A stretch of DNA of 64,000 bases from contig NZ_CP021874.1 in assembly GCF_002197645.1 (NCBI RefSeq), positions 992,001 through 1,056,000 on the forward strand, given 5' to 3'. The notes below the pieces were generated by a model. That model ran no database searches. It was not told where the DNA came from and saw only the letters and a program-made list of their open reading frames with translations. A program made the position numbers and the translations under genes. This document shows, in pieces, positions 4,001 to 53,225 of this stretch (positions within the stretch are counted from its first letter, which is position 1; each line of letters opens with the position of its first letter). The DNA comes from Enterococcus wangshanyuanii (lineage in GTDB: Bacteria; Bacillota; Bacilli; Lactobacillales; Enterococcaceae).

Positions 4001-5767
4001 ATCGTCTTTTGAAAAAGCTGTTATAGCCTCGATAAATTGTTCACCGTATTTATCAAGCTTGTTTTGTCCCACACCTTTTATTTGAAGGAGCTGGATCGAA
4101 TTTTTTGGTCGTTTTTCACACATTTCTTTTAAGGTGCTGTCTGAAAAAATTAGGTATGGAGGAACCCCAGCATCCTGTGCTAGATCCAATCTTAGTCCTC
4201 TCAATACTTCAAACAATGCATCATCTATAGCGGCAACTTTACGTACGCGCTGATCTTCTTTTCTAAAAACTGTTTGTTTGCCTAATAAAACTTGGATACC
4301 GGTCGCTGAAACAGAAAGCAGCGGATATTGTCCATCGGATGGTGTCAAATATCTTTCGGCAGTCAAATAGTCGATCAGTTGAGTGACTTCCTTTTGAGTA
4401 CGGTCTTTCATTAATCCATAGGTCGGCAAACGATGGAAATGCCATTGATCGATTTTTTGATCCTTTGACCCCGTCAATACTTTACCAACTAGGCCTTTAC
4501 CAAATTTTTCTCCCATACGCTTGACGCATGACAGGACTTTTTGAGCATCGACTGTTACATCGACTAATTCTCGTTCATCTAAACAATTGGAACAGCGACC
4601 ACATTCTGTTCCCTGCTCACCAAAGTAACGTAAAATGAACTGCTGCAGACACATTTGAGCATTGGCATACTGTGACATTTCACGCAGCTTCATATATTCT
4701 TTTTGCTTGTAGTCGATCGTCATTTCAGATTGATCGATAAAAAACTGCTGGATTTGCAGATCCTGAGGACCGTATAACAATACAGCATCACTCGGCAGCC
4801 CATCACGACCAGCGCGTCCTGCTTCTTGATAATAGGACTCAATATTCCCTGGTATTTGAGCATGGATGACAAAACGTACATTACTCTTATTGATCCCCAT
4901 ACCAAATGCATTTGTAGCAACCATCACCTGTATTTTGTCAAATAAAAATTCCTCTTGATTATGATTTCGATCACTCTCATTCATGCCTCCGTGGTACATA
5001 CCAACAGCAATTTTCTTACTTTTCAATAAATGATAGATTCGTTCTACTTCTTTTCTAGTGCTGGCATAGACGATTCCAGACTGATCTTTGTTCATCTTTA
5101 AGTATTCCAGCAAATAAACATCGCGATTTTGATCTTTCACTACTTGAAAGGATAAGTTTTCACGGGCAAACCCTGTTTGTACTTGATTCTGTTTTGGTAT
5201 GTGTAATTGCTCTAAGATATCTTCTGCAACTTGAGGTGTCGCTGTAGCAGTCAATGCAATGACTGAAGGCTGTTGCTGAAATTGTTCAATGATTTCGGCT
5301 AAACGTAAATAGCTAGGACGAAAGTCGTGTCCCCATTGAGAAATACAGTGTGCCTCATCTACAGCCAGTAAATCGATCGGTACGTGTAAAAGCAGTTGCT
5401 GAAAATCAAAAGATTCTAAGCGTTCGGGTGCTACATAAAGAAGTTTGACTTTTCGATCTACAGCAAGTTGAACTCGCTTATTCATCTCTTGCTGAGAAAT
5501 CGTGCTATTGATAAACGTTGCAGGGATCCCCATCATGTTTAGAGCATCGACTTGATCTTTCATCAAGGAAATCAACGGAGAAATCACTAAAGTCAGATTC
5601 TCTAAAGCAAGTGCAGGCAGTTGATAGCAAATCGATTTACCGCCACCTGTGGGCATGATTCCTAATACATTTTCTTTATTTAATACATGATTGATGATTT
5701 CTTCTTGACCTTGACGAAAATCATCATAGCCAAATTTTTCTTTTAATAGCGCTTTTATGTCAATCAT
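3998..5767 (-). CDS. recQ: ATP-dependent DNA helicase RecQ
   Basis: A 589-residue 3'-5' helicase of the RecQ family, acting in recombination and repair of stalled forks. Walker A is PTGGGKS (39-45). The DEAH box sits in LAVDEAHCISQWGHDFRP, the arginine-finger motif in GRAGRDG, and the zinc cysteines in the RQC part (CGRCSNC). A C-terminal HRDC domain runs from about residue 510 (FEVLRGLRLDLA to LLQIKGVGQNKL). All three family modules are present and the length is normal. The ATG at 5767 has GGAG 8 nt upstream. It is transcribed alone. Confidence 0.96.
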   Translation of the reverse strand: MIDIKALLKEKFGYDDFRQGQEEIINHVLNKENVLGIMPTGGGKSICYQLPALALENLTLVISPLISLMKDQVDALNMMGIPATFINSTISQQEMNKRVQLAVDRKVKLLYVAPERLESFDFQQLLLHVPIDLLAVDEAHCISQWGHDFRPSYLRLAEIIEQFQQQPSVIALTATATPQVAEDILEQLHIPKQNQVQTGFARENLSFQVVKDQNRDVYLLEYLKMNKDQSGIVYASTRKEVERIYHLLKSKKIAVGMYHGGMNESDRNHNQEEFLFDKIQVMVATNAFGMGINKSNVRFVIHAQIPGNIESYYQEAGRAGRDGLPSDAVLLYGPQDLQIQQFFIDQSEMTIDYKQKEYMKLREMSQYANAQMCLQQFILRYFGEQGTECGRCSNCLDERELVDVTVDAQKVLSCVKRMGEKFGKGLVGKVLTGSKDQKIDQWHFHRLPTYGLMKDRTQKEVTQLIDYLTAERYLTPSDGQYPLLSVSATGIQVLLGKQTVFRKEDQRVRKVAAIDDALFEVLRGLRLDLAQDAGVPPYLIFSDSTLKEMCEKRPKNSIQLLQIKGVGQNKLDKYGEQFIEAITAFSKDD

Positions 5768-47944: not shown

Positions 47945-49594
47945 CTAGTTTCCTGTAACACTTCGGAGTTTTCTATTAATTTTCACTTCAACAACATTCA
48001 ATTCATCTTTGAACTGCAATGCATGTAGAAGCGCTGCAAAACCATCAGTTTTTCTTAATTTTGGTTCAATTTTTTCATAAGTAATATTTTGTTTCGCATC
48101 ACGCTGCACAAAAGTATTGTTTGTATACCAACGCATCATAAAATCATCTTTGGCATAAATAATATTTCTATAACTAAATAAATCTTCGATAATTGGTTGC
48201 AGCATCGTATGAGTTTTCCAACCGGATCTCGCAACCTTCATATTGCCGAATCCTGCTTCTTTAAATTTTTCTTCTACATAATTTATACGATAAAGATCAC
48301 CAGTAATCATTTTGATGTTGTATAGCTTGGCCATTTCCATAAACCATTTAACTAGATACTCAGGTTTATTTGTTTCATCATCGATAAAAGTTACCAAACC
48401 TTTTTGTTTCGCCAATTCTAGATCGACTTTGTATGTTTTGTTCTTTAAAGATTTTTTATTGATTAAGGTATGGTGCAACCAATAATATTTATCGCCCACC
48501 TTAAAAAGCAGACCCAAACCAACAAAATCAGTCGTGTCAGAGTAATCAATTGCACCAATACAAGCTCTTCCTCTCAGATCAGGCCAAGAGATATTTGTGA
48601 TTTCCATCAGGACTTCCCAATCAGTAACTTCTTGGTAAGAATCTGTTGAAGGGATATTCATTCTCTTGGTCATAAACTCAATATAAGAACTTGGTCTATC
48701 TTCCAATTTTTCGTATTCATCCATCATTTCTTGTCGTAAATCGGAAAAATAGCGAATTGAAGGATTGGCTTTCTCCCACATTCTAGGATCATGAACTTCT
48801 TCTGGATCATCTATCTTGCAAATGAATGGAAAAGTTCTTCTTTTCGGACGTTCTCCAGCAAGGATCATTTTCGCTTCTAACTTAAGTTGATCAAGAAAAC
48901 CATCACGAACATATCCATCAGTAGTAAAGTAGAATCTCCTTGGATGCTTTTTCTTTCCTAAACCGGAAGTAAATACCTTGATTGAATCTTCATTCTCATA
49001 AGCATGAACTTCATCAAAAATAACGGCTCCTTGTCGTCCGCCATCTTTAGTTTTGGCATTATTGGTTCTATATCTTAATGTTGATCGAGTTTTTTGAAAT
49101 ACAATCTTTTCCATGGTCCATCTGAAAAACTTTTTATACTTTTTCTTATTATCTTCCAGAATAGTATGGACTTCATCGAATGATTCTTTCGCTTGATCTT
49201 CCGATGTCGCAACAATATCCACATGATATTTATTGATTCCCTGCTTAGTCGTTAGGTACCATTCTATAATTGACATAAAGCCAGTTTTGCCGCCGCCTCG
49301 ACCCATCATTATAAGAAATTCATTGAACATCAAGGTTCCATCGCTGTATAAGACTCCGACAACGAAAGCTAAAATAAACACTTCCCAATCTAATAACTTA
49401 AATGGAAAGTGTTTTTCAATATTTTCAATCGCTTCATCAATTTTTTGACCATCAATTACAATGTCTGGTTCATTCAGTTTTAATTCTAAAAAATCAATTA
49501 ACTCATGTATCTCCTTACAAGCTAAAATTTCACCATTCCGAATTTTATTTATATATTGATCGATTGACCAGTGATACAAATTTTTAGAAGTCAT
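47945..49594 (-). CDS. Terminase large subunit
   Basis: A 549-residue packaging motor. Walker A is MGRGGGKT (97-104) and the Walker B region GAVIFDEVH. The C-terminal nuclease has metal Asp residues in IDYSDTTDF and MITGDLYR. It cuts and pumps DNA with the small subunit. The start is uncertain (three close ATGs). 49594 is used because it overlaps the small subunit stop by 11 bp. Confidence 0.94.
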   Translation of the reverse strand: MTSKNLYHWSIDQYINKIRNGEILACKEIHELIDFLELKLNEPDIVIDGQKIDEAIENIEKHFPFKLLDWEVFILAFVVGVLYSDGTLMFNEFLIMMGRGGGKTGFMSIIEWYLTTKQGINKYHVDIVATSEDQAKESFDEVHTILEDNKKKYKKFFRWTMEKIVFQKTRSTLRYRTNNAKTKDGGRQGAVIFDEVHAYENEDSIKVFTSGLGKKKHPRRFYFTTDGYVRDGFLDQLKLEAKMILAGERPKRRTFPFICKIDDPEEVHDPRMWEKANPSIRYFSDLRQEMMDEYEKLEDRPSSYIEFMTKRMNIPSTDSYQEVTDWEVLMEITNISWPDLRGRACIGAIDYSDTTDFVGLGLLFKVGDKYYWLHHTLINKKSLKNKTYKVDLELAKQKGLVTFIDDETNKPEYLVKWFMEMAKLYNIKMITGDLYRINYVEEKFKEAGFGNMKVARSGWKTHTMLQPIIEDLFSYRNIIYAKDDFMMRWYTNNTFVQRDAKQNITYEKIEPKLRKTDGFAALLHALQFKDELNVVEVKINRKLRSVTGN

Positions 49595-50129
49595 CTTCAT
49601 TAGGATCGCCATCTTCTTCGGTGGTTTTTATATTTAATTGTTGGAGGATTCGAAGCATCTGAGTATTGGTTTTCTGGGCTTCTGCGACTGAATCGTTTCG
49701 CTTATATCCCTTTTGAGTTTTAGAATTTTCCCACGGAACAACAGCTCCTCTGGTCTTAATATCTTGTAGCAGTTCGTTCTTTATATCCCAAAAAGCCATG
49801 TAGTCATCAATTAAATCGAAGAAGTGAGCACCTAGAATCCCTTGTTCTTCAAGCTGTTCGATAAGTCCCTCTTTGATTTCAGCACGCTTTTTGAAATCAA
49901 TTTTTGTATCATGTAATTCAGTATTTTCTGTTACATTTCCTCCCGAAAGGAGGTCAACTGATACATTTAATGCTACACATATTTCTTTCAAAACTACATC
50001 GTTTGGAATAGTTTTCCCTTGTTCGTACCTAGCAATAGAAGTCCTTGAAACTCCTAACTTTTCAGCTAATTTACGTTGACTAATTTTCCGAATTTCTCGA
50101 ACCTCTTTTAACTTCTTCCCGACCATCAT
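49584..50129 (-). CDS. Terminase small subunit with N-terminal XRE helix-turn-helix
   Basis: A 181-residue protein. Residues about 5-60 are a Cro/CI-type helix-turn-helix (RKISQRKLAEKLGVSRTSIA; YEQGKTIPNDVVL). Residues about 100-165 resemble the P27-type small terminase (YMAFWDIKNELLQDI; VPWENSKTQKGYKRND). It should recognise the packaging site in DNA. The XRE form of the DNA-binding part is unusual. Confidence 0.85.
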   Translation of the reverse strand: MMVGKKLKEVREIRKISQRKLAEKLGVSRTSIARYEQGKTIPNDVVLKEICVALNVSVDLLSGGNVTENTELHDTKIDFKKRAEIKEGLIEQLEEQGILGAHFFDLIDDYMAFWDIKNELLQDIKTRGAVVPWENSKTQKGYKRNDSVAEAQKTNTQMLRILQQLNIKTTEEDGDPNEDDF

Positions 50130-50241
50130 TTTGTATCATACCCCCCTCACGCGAGAAAATTAATTTTTTTGTGCAGTCTTGAACCCCTTCCCGTTTCGCT
50201 CCCCCCTGTTTAGAATTTGCATTTGGTTGCGACCGGGGGCT
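50130..50241. other. Candidate cos (packaging) region
   Basis: This stretch between the small terminase and HNH genes has no ORF. It contains GC-rich blocks in an AT-rich genome: GCCCCCGGTCGC, GGGGGGAGCG and GAGGGGGG (minus strand). Phages with an HNH gene next to terminase usually package from cos ends that are GC-rich. The exact nick sites are unknown. Confidence 0.5.
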
Positions 50242-50556
50242 TCACCAGCGCTCTTCGTTCATAAATTTTGGCTGATTGTATTTAGAAAGCTTTTCTGGAT
50301 GTTCTTTGTTGTGACACTTGTTGCATTGTGGTTCAACATTTGATAACTGTAATGCTAGCAAAGGATAATCCTTCACCTTCTTCTTATGATGAACCATCGT
50401 CGCTTTTTTCCCGCATTTTGTACATTTGTTTCCATACATTCTTAGCGCTGTTGCTCTAAGTTTTCTCCATGGCCCAGACTGATAGAACTTTACTAACTCG
50501 TCTTCCTTAATCCATATCAATAACTTATTGAGCATTTGCTTAGTCATTAGGTCCAA
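50242..50556 (-). CDS. HNH endonuclease (packaging-associated)
   Basis: A 104-residue HNH nuclease. The Cys pairs CTKC and CNKC frame the active-site HH (TMVHHKKKV) and N (VEPQCNKCHN). In cos phages such a protein works with the terminase to cut packaging sites. A TTG start at 50556 has GAGGT upstream. Confidence 0.9.
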   Translation of the reverse strand: MDLMTKQMLNKLLIWIKEDELVKFYQSGPWRKLRATALRMYGNKCTKCGKKATMVHHKKKVKDYPLLALQLSNVEPQCNKCHNKEHPEKLSKYNQPKFMNEERW

Positions 50557-50560
50557 AGCA

Positions 50561-50863
50561 CTACCTCACGATCTGAATATATTTACAAGCAAAATCAATA
50601 TAAAATTCAATTTCATCAGAAGAGTATTCGAGAAAACGTTGTATGGTATTGATATCCAATCGCTTTCTCAAGTCTTCTATATTCAATTTACGGCAACGAT
50701 TGTCGTTTACTACTTCCCTGATGTTCACATAGCGTTCATAAACTAATATACAGAATTCAGAGAATAGTTTTCCTTCTTGTACTGTGCGATCGGCTGCTAG
50801 TTTCTGTCCTATCATTTCCATTTGCTCAGTTTCAAATAGCGCCCCTTTATGATTTATTATCAT
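50561..50863 (-). CDS. Phage protein of unknown function
   Basis: A 100-residue protein (MIINHKGALFETEQMEMIGQ; EYSSDEIEFYIDFACK). Alpha-helical, no motif recognised. It overlaps the preceding gene by 17 bp and is part of the late operon just before HNH. Confidence 0.6.
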   Translation of the reverse strand: MIINHKGALFETEQMEMIGQKLAADRTVQEGKLFSEFCILVYERYVNIREVVNDNRCRKLNIEDLRKRLDINTIQRFLEYSSDEIEFYIDFACKYIQIVR

Positions 50864-51203
50864 GAGGCAAACTCTCCAAATAGCTCATTGTCCATACTCT
50901 TTGAACCTCAGTTACTAATTGCGTATTCCTATCAACTCTGTTGATTCCTTGATCTTGGAGTAACGTTTCATTATGAGGCTGCAACATGATATTACGCATG
51001 ATACTTGTAAGTAATGCAGCAATCTCTTCATTGGTTAACATGTATGTTGAACAGTCTGACAATACTTTGTTTTGAATATCGTCCAAAGGTTTGTCCTTAG
51101 TAGCTTTCTTTTTTCCGATGTCAATGTACTGTCTTTTATCTTTCAATTGCTCGAAAACCAAATTATTCTTTTCATTTGTTGATTCATTCTTTGTTGCTCC
51201 CAT
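50847..51203 (-). CDS. Phage protein of unknown function
   Basis: A 118-residue charged protein (GKKKATKDKPLDDIQN; SDCSTYMLTNEEIAALLTS). AAAGGCGG stands 8 nt before the ATG. It is the first gene of the late operon, directly downstream of the tRNA-like RNA. Confidence 0.65.
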   Translation of the reverse strand: MGATKNESTNEKNNLVFEQLKDKRQYIDIGKKKATKDKPLDDIQNKVLSDCSTYMLTNEEIAALLTSIMRNIMLQPHNETLLQDQGINRVDRNTQLVTEVQRVWTMSYLESLPHDNKS

Positions 51204-51229
51204 TAAGGATCACCGCCTTTCTTTTAAAT

Positions 51230-51404
51230 TGCTAAGGTGTGGATTTGCACCACACATACAGTCTTTATTCTCTATAGTTTGAGTATACGTTCTCCAACTG
51301 GTGCCACTTTTTCGGCGCGTAGGCTCAACCCTCGCATGACTGCCAACCGTCTGTTGCAATCCCTATAGATTTGTATTTACGTCTACCTATTCCGCCACTT
51401 AGCA
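51230..51404 (-). ncRNA. tRNA-like structured RNA of unknown function (candidate)
   Basis: On the minus strand a 7-bp acceptor-like stem pairs TGCTAAG (51398-51404) with CTTAGCA (51230-51236). T8-G9 and a tRNA-Leu-like D-arm follow (D-stem GCG/CGT, loop GAATAGGTAGA, 51379-51397). A T-arm-like hairpin GTGTGG/CCACAC with loop TGCAAAT sits at 51237-51255. Between them is an enlarged middle: a 7-bp helix TCTATAG/CTATAGA (51363-51369 with 51271-51277), a hairpin GATTGCAAC/GTTGGCAGTC, and a hairpin whose loop TTGAG can pair with CTCAA (51279-51283), a pseudoknot. At 175 nt it is far longer than a tRNA. Confidence 0.6.
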
Positions 51405-51406
51405 TG

Positions 51407-51457
51407 ATTATCAAGAGAAACATTCAATAGACGATTATTTTTTGTGAGTAGTCTATT
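51407..51457 (-). promoter_or_regulatory. Candidate late promoter with inverted repeat
   Basis: A 7-bp inverted repeat (GTCTATT/AATAGAC, 51426-51432 and 51451-51457) overlaps the expected -35 zone of a GATAAT -10 (51407-51412). The -35 is poor, as for activator-dependent promoters. Transcription would start at or near the first base of the tRNA-like element. The adjacent sigma-like gene is a natural activator. Confidence 0.4.
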
Positions 51458-51468
51458 ATTTAGCCCTC

Positions 51469-52050
51469 TCATACATAGGTGGCTTCTGTATGACAAGAAT
51501 GATTTAAAAGTTTTTTCATCGCCCTATTTACATATACTTGAACTGATGATCTACTAATTCCTAAATATTCCGACGTCAAAGTATAACTATTTCCTTCTCC
51601 TACTACTGATAGTACCGATTCCCTTTCTCTTTGAGACAAGACAGACATGTAGCGCTCTAACGCTGCTAACTGTTCATCTGTCAATTGTCCATAATCTTCT
51701 CGCAGATATTTCATTGATACTCTATCAATATCTCCCCAAAGCTCTGTCCGCTGATAATATGATCGTCTACTTATTTCTTTGTTGTATCCTGGTTGTTTCG
51801 CTGTCTCCAACCATTTGATAGAATATCTAGTATCGGAGATAATAGGACTCAACCTTTTCGCTACCGCTCTATATTCTTCATACTCAGTATAAAATTCAGC
51901 AGCCATTTCCCATTCCTGATTCTCTTCGCATTCTTTGGCTAATTTTAGATAAATCTTTGCTCGATCGTTATGATATTTGTGTACAGCAAGAACTGGCTTT
52001 AAGTCCTCTTTGTATTCTGCCGCTAACTCATCCGCATATTTGTATTTCAT
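51469..52050 (-). CDS. Late gene activator, sigma-like helix-turn-helix (ArpU/RinA type)
   Basis: A 193-residue protein with a long helical N-terminal part (about 1-130) and a C-terminal sigma-70 region 4-like helix-turn-helix (LSQRERESVLSVVGEG; SEYLGISRSSVQVYVNRAM). Such proteins switch on late phage operons. The start at 52050 has AGGAGG upstream. It lies just before the late operon and after a terminator. Confidence 0.82.
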   Translation of the reverse strand: MKYKYADELAAEYKEDLKPVLAVHKYHNDRAKIYLKLAKECEENQEWEMAAEFYTEYEEYRAVAKRLSPIISDTRYSIKWLETAKQPGYNKEISRRSYYQRTELWGDIDRVSMKYLREDYGQLTDEQLAALERYMSVLSQRERESVLSVVGEGNSYTLTSEYLGISRSSVQVYVNRAMKKLLNHSCHTEATYV

Positions 52051-52071
52051 CCGACATCCTCCTATGTACAG

Positions 52072-52121
52072 AAAAAGAGGACACCTCAGCAAACGCATAT
52101 CACGCTTACTAAAGTGCCCTC
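52072..52121 (-). terminator. Terminator between early/accessory genes and late activator
   Basis: A long imperfect stem (GAGGGCACTTTAG with CTGAGGTGTCCTC, 5' inner AAGCG/CGTTT) followed by TTTTTC on the minus strand, 20 bp upstream of the activator gene. It may limit read-through from the early operon. Confidence 0.8.
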
Positions 52122-52140
52122 CAGCTTTCTGGTCAGACAA

Positions 52141-52329
52141 TTATTTTGTTGTAAAATTGTATTCCATTCTTTGGAACTTGCTATCCGAAATCTTAACACC
52201 AGCTGTTCCATGTTCAGGTAGATCAGCTATCCTTAGCTCGCCACCTGTACAGATAATAACTTTTTTGTCTATGTCATTCATGGCCAACTGTTTTAGCTGG
52301 TCCATGGTAATTTCTTTTGTTGACTTCAT
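52141..52329 (-). CDS. Small phage protein of unknown function
   Basis: A 62-residue protein (MKSTKEITMDQLKQLAMNDI; ends FQRMEYNFTTK). AAAGGGG before the ATG at 52329. No motif recognised. Confidence 0.6.
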   Translation of the reverse strand: MKSTKEITMDQLKQLAMNDIDKKVIICTGGELRIADLPEHGTAGVKISDSKFQRMEYNFTTK

Positions 52330-52330
52330 G

Positions 52331-52594
52331 CTACCCCTTTCCATCAAGATAGATTTCCTTGATATCCAATACATATTTCTTTATGCCAATCACTGCTCCA
52401 TAGCTCCCTCTGATGTATTCATTATCTTTATAAACCTTTATTAAATCAGACGTTGCGTCTGAACAATCATCTAAATGCTGTTCTAACTTTTCAAAGATTT
52501 TCGTCATTAACTTTCTCTCGATATTGAAGGCAAGATTAACCCCAGCACCGAATGAAACTATGACTAAAAAGATCATTACAAAATAAGTCGTCAT
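52331..52594 (-). CDS. Small phage membrane protein
   Basis: An 87-residue protein with one N-terminal membrane helix (YFVMIFLVIVSFGAGVNLAF) and a soluble helical tail. GAGGG before the ATG. It ends one base before the 52329 start. Function unknown. Confidence 0.62.
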   Translation of the reverse strand: MTTYFVMIFLVIVSFGAGVNLAFNIERKLMTKIFEKLEQHLDDCSDATSDLIKVYKDNEYIRGSYGAVIGIKKYVLDIKEIYLDGKG

Positions 52595-52846
52595 TCATTT
52601 CCCTCGCTCTCTAAACAACTTGCCAAAAGCTCGTTGCCTGCTCATTGCTCCGTTACGTTTATCACCTTTTAATATTAAATTTGGTTTTGTTAACTTCTCA
52701 AATTCCGTTAAATCAATCTCCATTGGTGACTCAAACGAATACATCATTGCATCTATTTGCCAATCAGTCATTTCAACGCCAAATATTCTTGATGCTTCAC
52801 TGATTTTTTTAATTGTTTCTTGCCATTCCAATTCAGTTTTAAGCAT
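52595..52846 (-). CDS. Phage protein of unknown function
   Basis: An 83-residue protein. AAAGGA lies 8 nt before the ATG at 52846 (MLKTELEWQETIKKI), so the upstream six codons are not used. The C-terminus is basic (KRNGAMSRQRAFGKLFRERG). No motif. Confidence 0.6.
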   Translation of the reverse strand: MLKTELEWQETIKKISEASRIFGVEMTDWQIDAMMYSFESPMEIDLTEFEKLTKPNLILKGDKRNGAMSRQRAFGKLFRERGK

Positions 52847-52865
52847 TTTTTGCGGTCCTTTCATA

Positions 52866-53225
52866 TCAGCATTCTGTTAACTTTATTGACTCTTTAATTG
52901 TGTCACAAGGAAAACAGTTATATCCGTCCGCGTCACATTTTATTGTCGTATAAGAAAATCCTATTTTCCCGTTAACAAAATCGGCGGTAAAGAAATCGAT
53001 GCCCGATCTTTCATTAGCACGTTCAACTGTATAAACTCCATCAATAGGTATTTCTACCAACCGAAACTCTTCCGGTTTGAACCCTTCTTTGGTTAGCTGA
53101 TCAGCGATTTCTTTTAGATGCTGCTTCTCTAAACAATCATGATAGCCAGCGATTACTGTATAACTTAATAGACGACCTCTGAACTTCTTTTCATTTTCTA
53201 AATAATCAAGTGTTGATTTCTTCAT
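52866..53225 (-). CDS. Phage protein of unknown function
   Basis: A 119-residue protein with three Cys in the C-terminal part (KCDADGYNCFPCDTI), perhaps a metal site. Helical N-terminus (LLSYTVIAGYHDCLEK). GAGGAG before the ATG. Function unknown. Confidence 0.6.
   Translation of the reverse strand: MKKSTLDYLENEKKFRGRLLSYTVIAGYHDCLEKQHLKEIADQLTKEGFKPEEFRLVEIPIDGVYTVERANERSGIDFFTADFVNGKIGFSYTTIKCDADGYNCFPCDTIKESIKLTEC

Follow-up and report, generated by a model that had tools for sequence, protein, structure and literature searches.

A phage-borne RNA family with a conserved leucine-type transfer RNA shell and an exchangeable domain in place of the anticodon and variable arms

The window analysed here is a stretch of 64,000 nucleotides (nt) from Enterococcus wangshanyuanii (RefSeq assembly GCF_002197645.1, contig NZ_CP021874.1, positions 992,001 to 1,056,000), and its element at 51404-51230 of the minus strand, running in the same direction as a phage late operon, resembles a transfer RNA (tRNA). 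Comparison with related loci shows that the element keeps the shell of a leucine-type tRNA, with stems that covary, and that the anticodon and variable arms have been swapped for an exchangeable domain. We regard it as nearly certain that such tRNA-mimic elements form a real conserved RNA family, and the comparative evidence indicates that their structure is preserved by selection.

A preliminary description, made from the window alone, had recognised the ends of the element as tRNA-like, and all of the features it named were found on the minus strand, to which all window coordinates below refer. The 5' strand of the acceptor stem, TGCTAAG (51398-51404), pairs at all seven positions with the 3' strand CTTAGCA (51230-51236), which is followed by A as N73 at 51229; CCA is not encoded. 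U8 and G9 lead into a Leu-type D-arm, GCGGAATAGGTAGACGT (51379-51397), which falls in conserved alignment columns. The T-arm, GTGTGG-TGCAAAT-CCACAC (51237-51255), has a covarying six-base-pair stem and the loop UGCAAAU, which keeps T54, C56 and A58; the G at position 55 and the sixth stem pair, both pointed out earlier as departures from tRNA, are present as described. Directly before the T-arm stand A47 and U48 (51256-51257), the latter universal among family members. Folded as a single sequence, the element does only mildly better than its shuffles (z -1.80, with 6 of 200 shuffles equally good), so the case for it rests on comparison. The plus strand also folds (z -2.26) but was rejected as the element's strand, since the late genes, like the homologous features, belong to the minus strand.

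The earlier view that the element is neither a tRNA nor a transfer-messenger RNA (tmRNA) also held up. ARAGORN found no tRNA or tmRNA in the window, Rfam 15 gave no tRNA-like match in 50000-53000 up to an E value of 10, and nothing in the whole window reached the gathering score of the Rfam tRNA model (RF00005). The same model gave the homologous element of phage SPP1 21.6 bits against a cut-off of 29. Non-tRNA Rfam matches in searches of 50000-53000, of the SPP1 element and of one relative of the window's insert (L375) were all far under their gathering scores. Two checks that the preliminary description had put forward were thus carried out: the Infernal search against Rfam matched no known family, and the search for covariation in homologues found it in the acceptor, the T-stem and two helices of the insert, A and B.

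To collect homologues, we scanned IMG/VR and genome contigs with a T-arm pattern and, separately, IMG/VR with a D-arm pattern; counts from the genome-contig T-arm scan and the IMG/VR D-arm scan are counts among the matches listed and hence lower bounds. A set of 93 members was defined by complete pairing of the acceptor, where one G-U at most was allowed, and of the T-stem, and a looser pattern, which required U48 and six of seven acceptor pairs and admitted some UUC loops, brought the collection to 134 distinct members with 84 different acceptor sequences. From the matches we removed L122, with a five-pair stem, and one match bridging two L040 copies. The matches form two main groups, with a few six-pair UUC intermediates between them. 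One group consists of ordinary tRNA-Leu genes, with a UUC loop and a five-pair T-stem. The other is the tRNA-mimic family, with the loop UGCRAAU, a six-pair T-stem and a middle of variable length, in a shell made of a 7-base-pair acceptor, U8-G9, a Leu D-arm with A15, and an invariant U48. The same T-loop sequence recurs in unrelated RNAs: the hairpin GGTGCAAATCC occurs in L120, L154 and L169, which resemble cobalamin riboswitches.

Because membership required pairing, the pairing percentages in our alignment of 78 sequences are partly there by construction, and the D-arm sites, chosen regardless of acceptor pairing, serve as a pairing-free check on the acceptor. Among the matches listed, 76 of 115 such sites have a UGC-type loop no more than 300 nt away, and the acceptor pairs at seven of seven positions in 63 of these 76, compared with a mean of 3.7 when the 3' strands are shuffled; in this sample both inner pairs of the T-stem were preset by the loop pattern, and phages related to each other were counted separately, so that kinship survives the shuffle. 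In the alignment, acceptor and T-stem together have a covariation score of 0.768 (0.174 when shuffled), with double changes at all seven acceptor pairs and at five of the six T-stem pairs. The alignment columns A15, A17, G18, G19, T20 and A21 are invariant in the 78 sequences, and U48 is present in 93/93, 76/76 and 78/78 members of three sets counted without requiring it; A15-U48 is the Levitt pair of Leu-type tRNAs. A generic cloverleaf scan of 372,988 bases around the 93 members returned 113 matches on the element strand, of which 87 are the elements and 26 are others, mainly tRNA-sized, and none on the opposite strand.

A covariance model of the family, R1, separates members (at least 56 bits) from tRNA-Leu (at most 41.5 bits), with three UUC-loop relatives at 46-70 bits. 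The window element scores 73.7 bits but is part of the training set, as L001. Sequences outside the training set score comparably: 82.3 bits for L016, from another prophage of the same genome, 77.7 for phage B054, 75.4 for phi3T and 61.3 for LP65.

The insert that replaces the anticodon and variable arms measures 22-191 nt, with a median of 75. A canonical anticodon arm (5 base pairs, 7-nt loop, U33) occurs in none of the 93 members, compared with 16 of 22 tRNA-Leu genes at the same loci. CCA is encoded in 1/93 members against 12/22 of those genes, N73 is A in 55/93 against 21/22, and N1 is G in 28/93 members. A helix that stops 2 nt short of the T-arm and scores at least 5.5 is found in 42% of the 93 members and in 9% of shuffles; a combined score of at least 11 for two crossing helices (A+B) is reached by 33% of the 82 inserts of up to 100 nt and by 7% of shuffles, an excess that is due in part to helix B alone. 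By eye, the inserts of L318, L241, L308, L226 and L031 contain an extra T-arm-like or whole tRNA-like segment, as if nested.

The window's own insert type is 121-130 nt long and is also found under other acceptors. We aligned 15 sequences of it: the window element, L002, L317 and twelve from four pattern scans, of which one returned mostly, and another several, unrelated loci. The near-copies L373, L374, L377, L405 and L425 were omitted, and an additional pattern scan for further inserts of this type returned only unrelated DNA and loci already known. Helix A joins TCTATAG (51363-51369) to CTATAGA (51271-51277) in the window and is paired in 99.0% of alignment cells, with double changes at five of seven pairs (TCTATAG/CTATAGA, TCCACAG/CTGTGGA and TTCACAG/CTGTGAA). 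Helix B joins GCAGTC (51338-51343) to GACTGT (51258-51263) and is paired in 98.8% of cells, with double changes at three of six pairs (GCAGTC/GACTGT, GCGGGC/GCCCGT and GTGGAC/GTCCAT); L369, as aligned, is without the helix-B segment. The helices follow one another in the order A-B-A'-B', and an H-type pseudoknot formed by A and B is therefore a well supported model for this insert family. In 4 of the 15 sequences the D-stem, too, has changed on both sides of a pair, from C-G to U-A.

That the middle is pseudoknotted had been suggested before, through pairing of the loop TTGAG (51324-51328) with CTCAA (51279-51283); the covarying pseudoknot is the one formed by A and B, and we rejected TTGAG/CTCAA (helix E) as the main pseudoknot since it shows no double change. 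As aligned, 76% of its cells pair, rising to 70/75 after manual re-registering, and a pairing compatible with the A and B helices is possible. Helix C, TGCAAC (51353-51358) with GTGGCA (51302-51307), lies inside A and was spotted by eye before it was counted; its positions 2, 3, 5 and 6 are paired in 15/15 sequences, with double changes at 2 and 5, position 1 in 8/15 and position 4 in 3/15. A small hairpin, GTT-GGAG-AAC (51289-51298), was recognised by eye in the alignment, with the stem variants GTT/AAC, GTC/GAC, ATC/GAT and GCT/AGC. The unpaired segments AAATACAAAT, ACGGTT, GCGAG and CCGAAAA are nearly invariant across the insert family, which suggests a binding or catalytic role for them. 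Rfam held no relevant match for L375, the relative of this insert that was searched.

Shell and insert appear to have been swapped as modules, since inserts differ amid similar flanks and insert types recur under several acceptors. We found 31 pairs of elements that share an acceptor and are at least 75% alike in one flank or both; their insert identity is 0.29-0.69 in 20 pairs (shuffled mean 0.51) and 0.95-1.00 in the remaining 11. Two of those 20 pairs are at least 75% alike on either side of the element: L251/L259, with flanks at 0.94/0.80 and inserts at 0.52, and L223/L315, with flanks at 0.80/0.99 and inserts at 0.59. When clustered, the inserts of the 134 elements fall into 103 groups, of which 90 have a single member; the window's cluster spans 10 acceptors, and the acceptor GTGCTTG spans 8 insert clusters. 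Phages SPP1 and Grass, whose genomes are of very different size, have a common insert under different acceptors.

One form of the element, with the acceptor TTATCGG, is chromosomal. It occurs in at least seven genomes, five of which are Listeria cornellensis, rocourtiae, riparia, grandensis and portnoyi, and no phage genes are evident by eye around the one locus examined in full. In 21 pairwise comparisons the element is 95-100% identical, next to 67-91% for the upstream 300 nt and 59-93% downstream, and this comparison indicates that the whole RNA, insert included, is under selection in these copies. An AzlD gene precedes the element in both Listeria loci tested with Pfam (L116:4544-4674 and kin); AzlD belongs to branched-chain amino acid transport and is an odd neighbour for a tRNA-Leu-like RNA.

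Besides the window element, the same genome contains three further copies of a 132-nt version (G000:C1:1483489, 1949288 and 3023709), in three near-identical prophage regions: around the element, L016 equals L017 over 3,558 bases and L018 is identical to both over 2,930. The family is also present in two other Enterococcus species. When the genus was searched with R1, 21 of 22 genomes matched at an E value of 0.001, and only the window's own genome, G002 and G004 exceeded 56 bits; we take the remaining matches, at about 31.7 bits, to be probable host tRNA-Leu genes. Among phages, 60 of 117 blastn records were listed and ten annotated phages were examined, yielding nine named carriers: Bacillus phages SPP1, phi3T and Grass, Listeria phage B054, Weissella phage PWc, Lactobacillus phages JNU_P10 and LP65, Lactiplantibacillus phage H1-Guo and Leuconostoc phage Ln-9. 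The pairing script recovered seven of the nine, while phi3T and B054 were recognised by R1. Four Latilactobacillus phages match in the blastn list as well. According to their records, the hosts of all nine carriers are Bacillota. A seemingly Gram-negative carrier, Burkholderia phage FLC9, was rejected on finding that it holds an ordinary tRNA-Leu D-arm, and the Klebsiella, Erwinia, Serratia and Synechococcus records among the 60 listed were set aside, from the listing alone, as annotated tRNA-Leu or unlabelled. None of the nine carrier records annotates an RNA at the element, and in LP65, phi3T and B054 open reading frames (ORFs) are annotated across part of it. This RNA, which recurs in well-studied phages, seems to have escaped notice because tRNA finders turn it down and Rfam has no family for it.

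In the window, the element begins 64 nt past the gene of a late activator with a sigma-70 region 4-like domain (51469-52140; Pfam Sigma70_r4_2, phrog_1190), and the next ORF starts 26 nt after the acceptor. This first downstream ORF encodes 118 amino acids (50847-51203; phrog_11846, unknown function) and is followed by an ORF of 100 amino acids, an HNH endonuclease gene (50242-50556; Pfam HNH), a gene for a protein with helix-turn-helix and Terminase_4 domains (49584-50129; Pfam), likely the small terminase subunit (TerS), and the gene of the terminase large subunit (TerL; 47945-49612; Pfam TerL_ATPase and TerL_nuclease). The Pfam assignments thus agree with the setting described at the outset, beside packaging and late genes; a late promoter next to the element is not borne out, since a simple scan of 51150-51620 found no promoter- or terminator-like sites.

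Similar neighbours recur elsewhere. The nearest upstream ORFs could be identified at 81 of the 93 loci (the other 12 have no upstream ORF of 90 amino acids within 1.5 kb), and most often match phrog_248, a transcriptional activator (23), phrog_36 (21) and an Alt-like activator (10), PHROG counts that overlap between families. Among 114 of 122 downstream ORFs, retained after eight were removed by hand (including the repeated L040 pair and the L087 pair), HNH, TerS and TerL families come out on top, each with at most 9. Latilactobacillus phage TMW 1.1397 P1 has the order activator, element, HNH, TerS, TerL, and in L016 the element is flanked by a sigma-like activator on one side and, on the other, by TerS and TerL of the Terminase_2 and Terminase_3 types, respectively. 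Other settings exist: the element stands between genes 9 and 11, which are head genes, in SPP1, among tRNA genes in Grass and LP65, and after a yonN-like gene in phi3T.

Several loci have further tRNA-like sequences close to the element. Directly upstream of the 132-nt element, L016:2622-2707 has a different tRNA-like shell, with a GTCACTG/CAGTGGC acceptor and the T-loop UUUGAUU (22.1 bits with R1). Just past the SPP1 element (L330:2113-2160) lies a short acceptor and T-arm hairpin, ACGGAC...GTCCGT around CGGGTTCAATTCCCG, like an armless tRNA. Two long tRNA-like elements at L091:4178-4293 and 4473-4597, with UUC T-loops and other D-arms, score 46.9 and 39.8 bits with the Rfam tRNA model, which means that enlarged middles are not confined to the Leu-type shell. 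Upstream of the element, ARAGORN reports tRNAs with a four-base anticodon (gtgc) at L035:570-648, L039:4216-4295 and L055:536-615, and at L031:1521-1606 a tRNA with the anticodon tta, which would read a stop codon.

We propose that the element is a phage-encoded, non-decoding tRNA mimic with an exchangeable insert, cut from the late transcript and stable, a reading that we consider evenly balanced between right and wrong before any decoy function is added to it. The shell would fold into a tRNA-like L, whereupon ribonuclease P (RNase P) would cut the 5' end from the late transcript and host tRNA 3' processing nucleases would form the 3' end, leaving a stable RNA of about 76-245 nt unable to decode. 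The shell offers the features by which RNase P and tRNA 3' nucleases recognise their substrates. Phage RNAs other than tRNAs are known to be cleaved by RNase P, among them M3 RNA and C4 antisense RNA (PMC11143913). That the element is a processed stable RNA is the step we find rather likely. The constant shell would provide stability and access to the tRNA-handling machinery, and the swapped insert a phage-specific activity; that the RNA acts in trans through this cargo seems to us slightly short of an even prospect. The likeliest mode of such action would be as a decoy for a host protein that binds tRNA or for a defence protein that cleaves or senses it, which we rank first because insert exchange in constant surroundings looks like an arms race; it is a guess, and a doubtful one. 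For YrlA and an anticodon nuclease, a comparable notion has been put forward (PMC7790460).

Several observations weigh against the proposed mimic. Neither the stack of 13 base pairs formed by acceptor and T-stem (7+6) nor the G55 is typical of what RNase P and other tRNA enzymes act on, and some acceptors are imperfect: by eye, that of phi3T has an extra C and that of B054 an A-C at position 1. The inserts of the 90 single clusters, out of 134 elements, have no relative in the set, which leaves the covariation proof of the pseudoknot confined to one insert family. The element is also rare in cells, with carriers in 6 of 398 sampled Bacillota genomes under strict filters, the window's own included. 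Nor does the window contain an antisense target: the longest exact complement is 11 nt, against 11-14 in shuffles, and antisense action on the window was rejected as no better than chance.

The simplest competing account, a decaying tRNA-Leu gene with a chance insertion, would explain the Leu-type D-arm and the frequent proximity of phage tRNA genes, but it is contradicted already by the covariation, which extends into the insert, and sits badly with 84 acceptor sequences, full pairing in 63 of 76 sites where pairing was not asked for, a conserved T-loop and U48, and chromosomal copies 95-100% identical; we give it hardly any credence. A packaging RNA that works with terminase, as the packaging RNA of phi29 reportedly does, was among the earlier suggestions and drew on the adjacency to HNH, TerS and TerL genes in many phages. 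That idea is now disfavoured: a single genome pairs the element with two terminase types (HNH, Terminase_4 and TerL_ATPase/nuclease in the window; Terminase_2 and Terminase_3 in L016), and the element also occurs between SPP1 genes 9 and 11, among tRNA genes in Grass and LP65 and beside AzlD in Listeria, variety that makes a packaging role very unlikely. More serious, if still improbable, is a function purely in cis, in which a tRNA-like punctuation or road-block heads late messenger RNAs, fixing their 5' end through an RNase P cut or shielding them from a 5' exonuclease, and the insert is stable filler. RNase J is the 5' exonuclease of Gram-positive hosts, and the nine named carriers all infect Bacillota; the close spacing of the window element between activator and next ORF, and the location of the family in many phages, with the late activator on one side and HNH/terminase genes on the other, would fit as well. 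Filler, however, needs neither near-invariant unpaired segments, as seen in the 15 aligned sequences, nor insert types that recur under different acceptors, and settings such as tRNA arrays and the Listeria loci lie elsewhere.

Two further accounts give the shell a specific protein partner. The element could itself accept leucine or act as a decoy of leucyl-tRNA synthetase, given that none of the 78 sequences departs from A15, U48, G18, G19 or the A that follows U20, and that leucylation in E. coli depends on A15-U48, G18G19 and A20a as essential elements but requires neither the anticodon nor the fold of the variable arm (PMC9976931). The same source names A73 as a leucine determinant, and here N73 is A in only 55/93 members (21/22 in tRNA-Leu), CCA is encoded in 1/93, N1 is G in 28/93 and position 55 is G; descent from tRNA-Leu alone would explain the common core, and we rate a role in leucylation as quite improbable. 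A Y RNA that tethers Ro60 is suggested by YrlA, which also has a tRNA-like domain (PMC8394870), but neither YrlA (RF02553) nor TROVE/Ro60 matches were found in the window's genome, the only genome tested. As described there, the ends of YrlA pair as the basal Ro60-binding stem and YrlA is a TruB substrate, while in the element the ends make up the acceptor stem and a G occupies position 55; the probability we leave to this account is negligible.

Returning to the processed tRNA mimic, we tentatively extend it to a scheme, one we consider rather less likely than not, in which a constant, translation-dead tRNA-Leu shell would serve as the chassis on which phages express and shield a large, recombining stock of structured RNA modules, each directed at its own host or defence target, with at least one lineage adopted by Listeria chromosomes. 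If true, this scaffold-and-cargo arrangement would be a natural counterpart of laboratory tRNA scaffolds, with a library of exchangeable RNA modules. The chromosomal copies suggest a use in cells as well. What phage tRNA-like stable RNAs do is an old question, which can now be tested directly in SPP1 and B. subtilis. We found no description of this RNA in the parts of the literature listings covered; a catalogue that reports candidate structured RNAs by the thousand, some of them close to phage domains (PMC8040213, seen here in part), may hold it as an unnamed entry.

Among known RNAs, class II tRNA-Leu agrees with the family in acceptor length, U8, D-arm, A15 with U48 and the place of the variable arm, whereas the family has no canonical anticodon arm, a six-pair T-stem, G55, a variable N73 and an encoded CCA in a single member. 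In tmRNA, tRNA-like ends enclose pseudoknots, and the family shares the ends and, in the window's insert type, a pseudoknot, but is only about 76-245 nt long; ARAGORN found no tmRNA in the sources scanned, and a tag ORF was not sought by other means. GOLLD and ROOL are likewise structured RNAs of phages and prophages, of unknown function and often near tRNA islands; GOLLD rises during lysis and in many cases exceeds 800 nt (PMC12286853). Neither had an Rfam match in the nine sources searched. YrlA and bacterial Y RNAs are also noncoding mimics of the D and T arms of tRNA, but differ from the family in their opposite topology, in being TruB substrates and in their partner Ro60 (PMC8394870). M3 RNA and C4 antisense RNA, as described in PMC11143913, are precedents for RNase P processing of non-tRNA phage RNAs, and are likened to the family by description only. 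The nearest known kind is the species 1 RNA of phage T4, rnaC, which is phage-encoded as well, has a tRNA-like 3' half with a T-arm, lies beside tRNA genes and, at 139 nt, is annotated as small and stable. It differs in its T-loop (UUCGAAU), five-pair T-stem, lack of a Leu D-arm and imperfect acceptor (two U-U by eye), and gave no match to R1 at E values up to 1. We therefore place the element with the phage tRNA-like RNAs, among which there is a real chance that its scaffold-and-cargo arrangement is new in principle.
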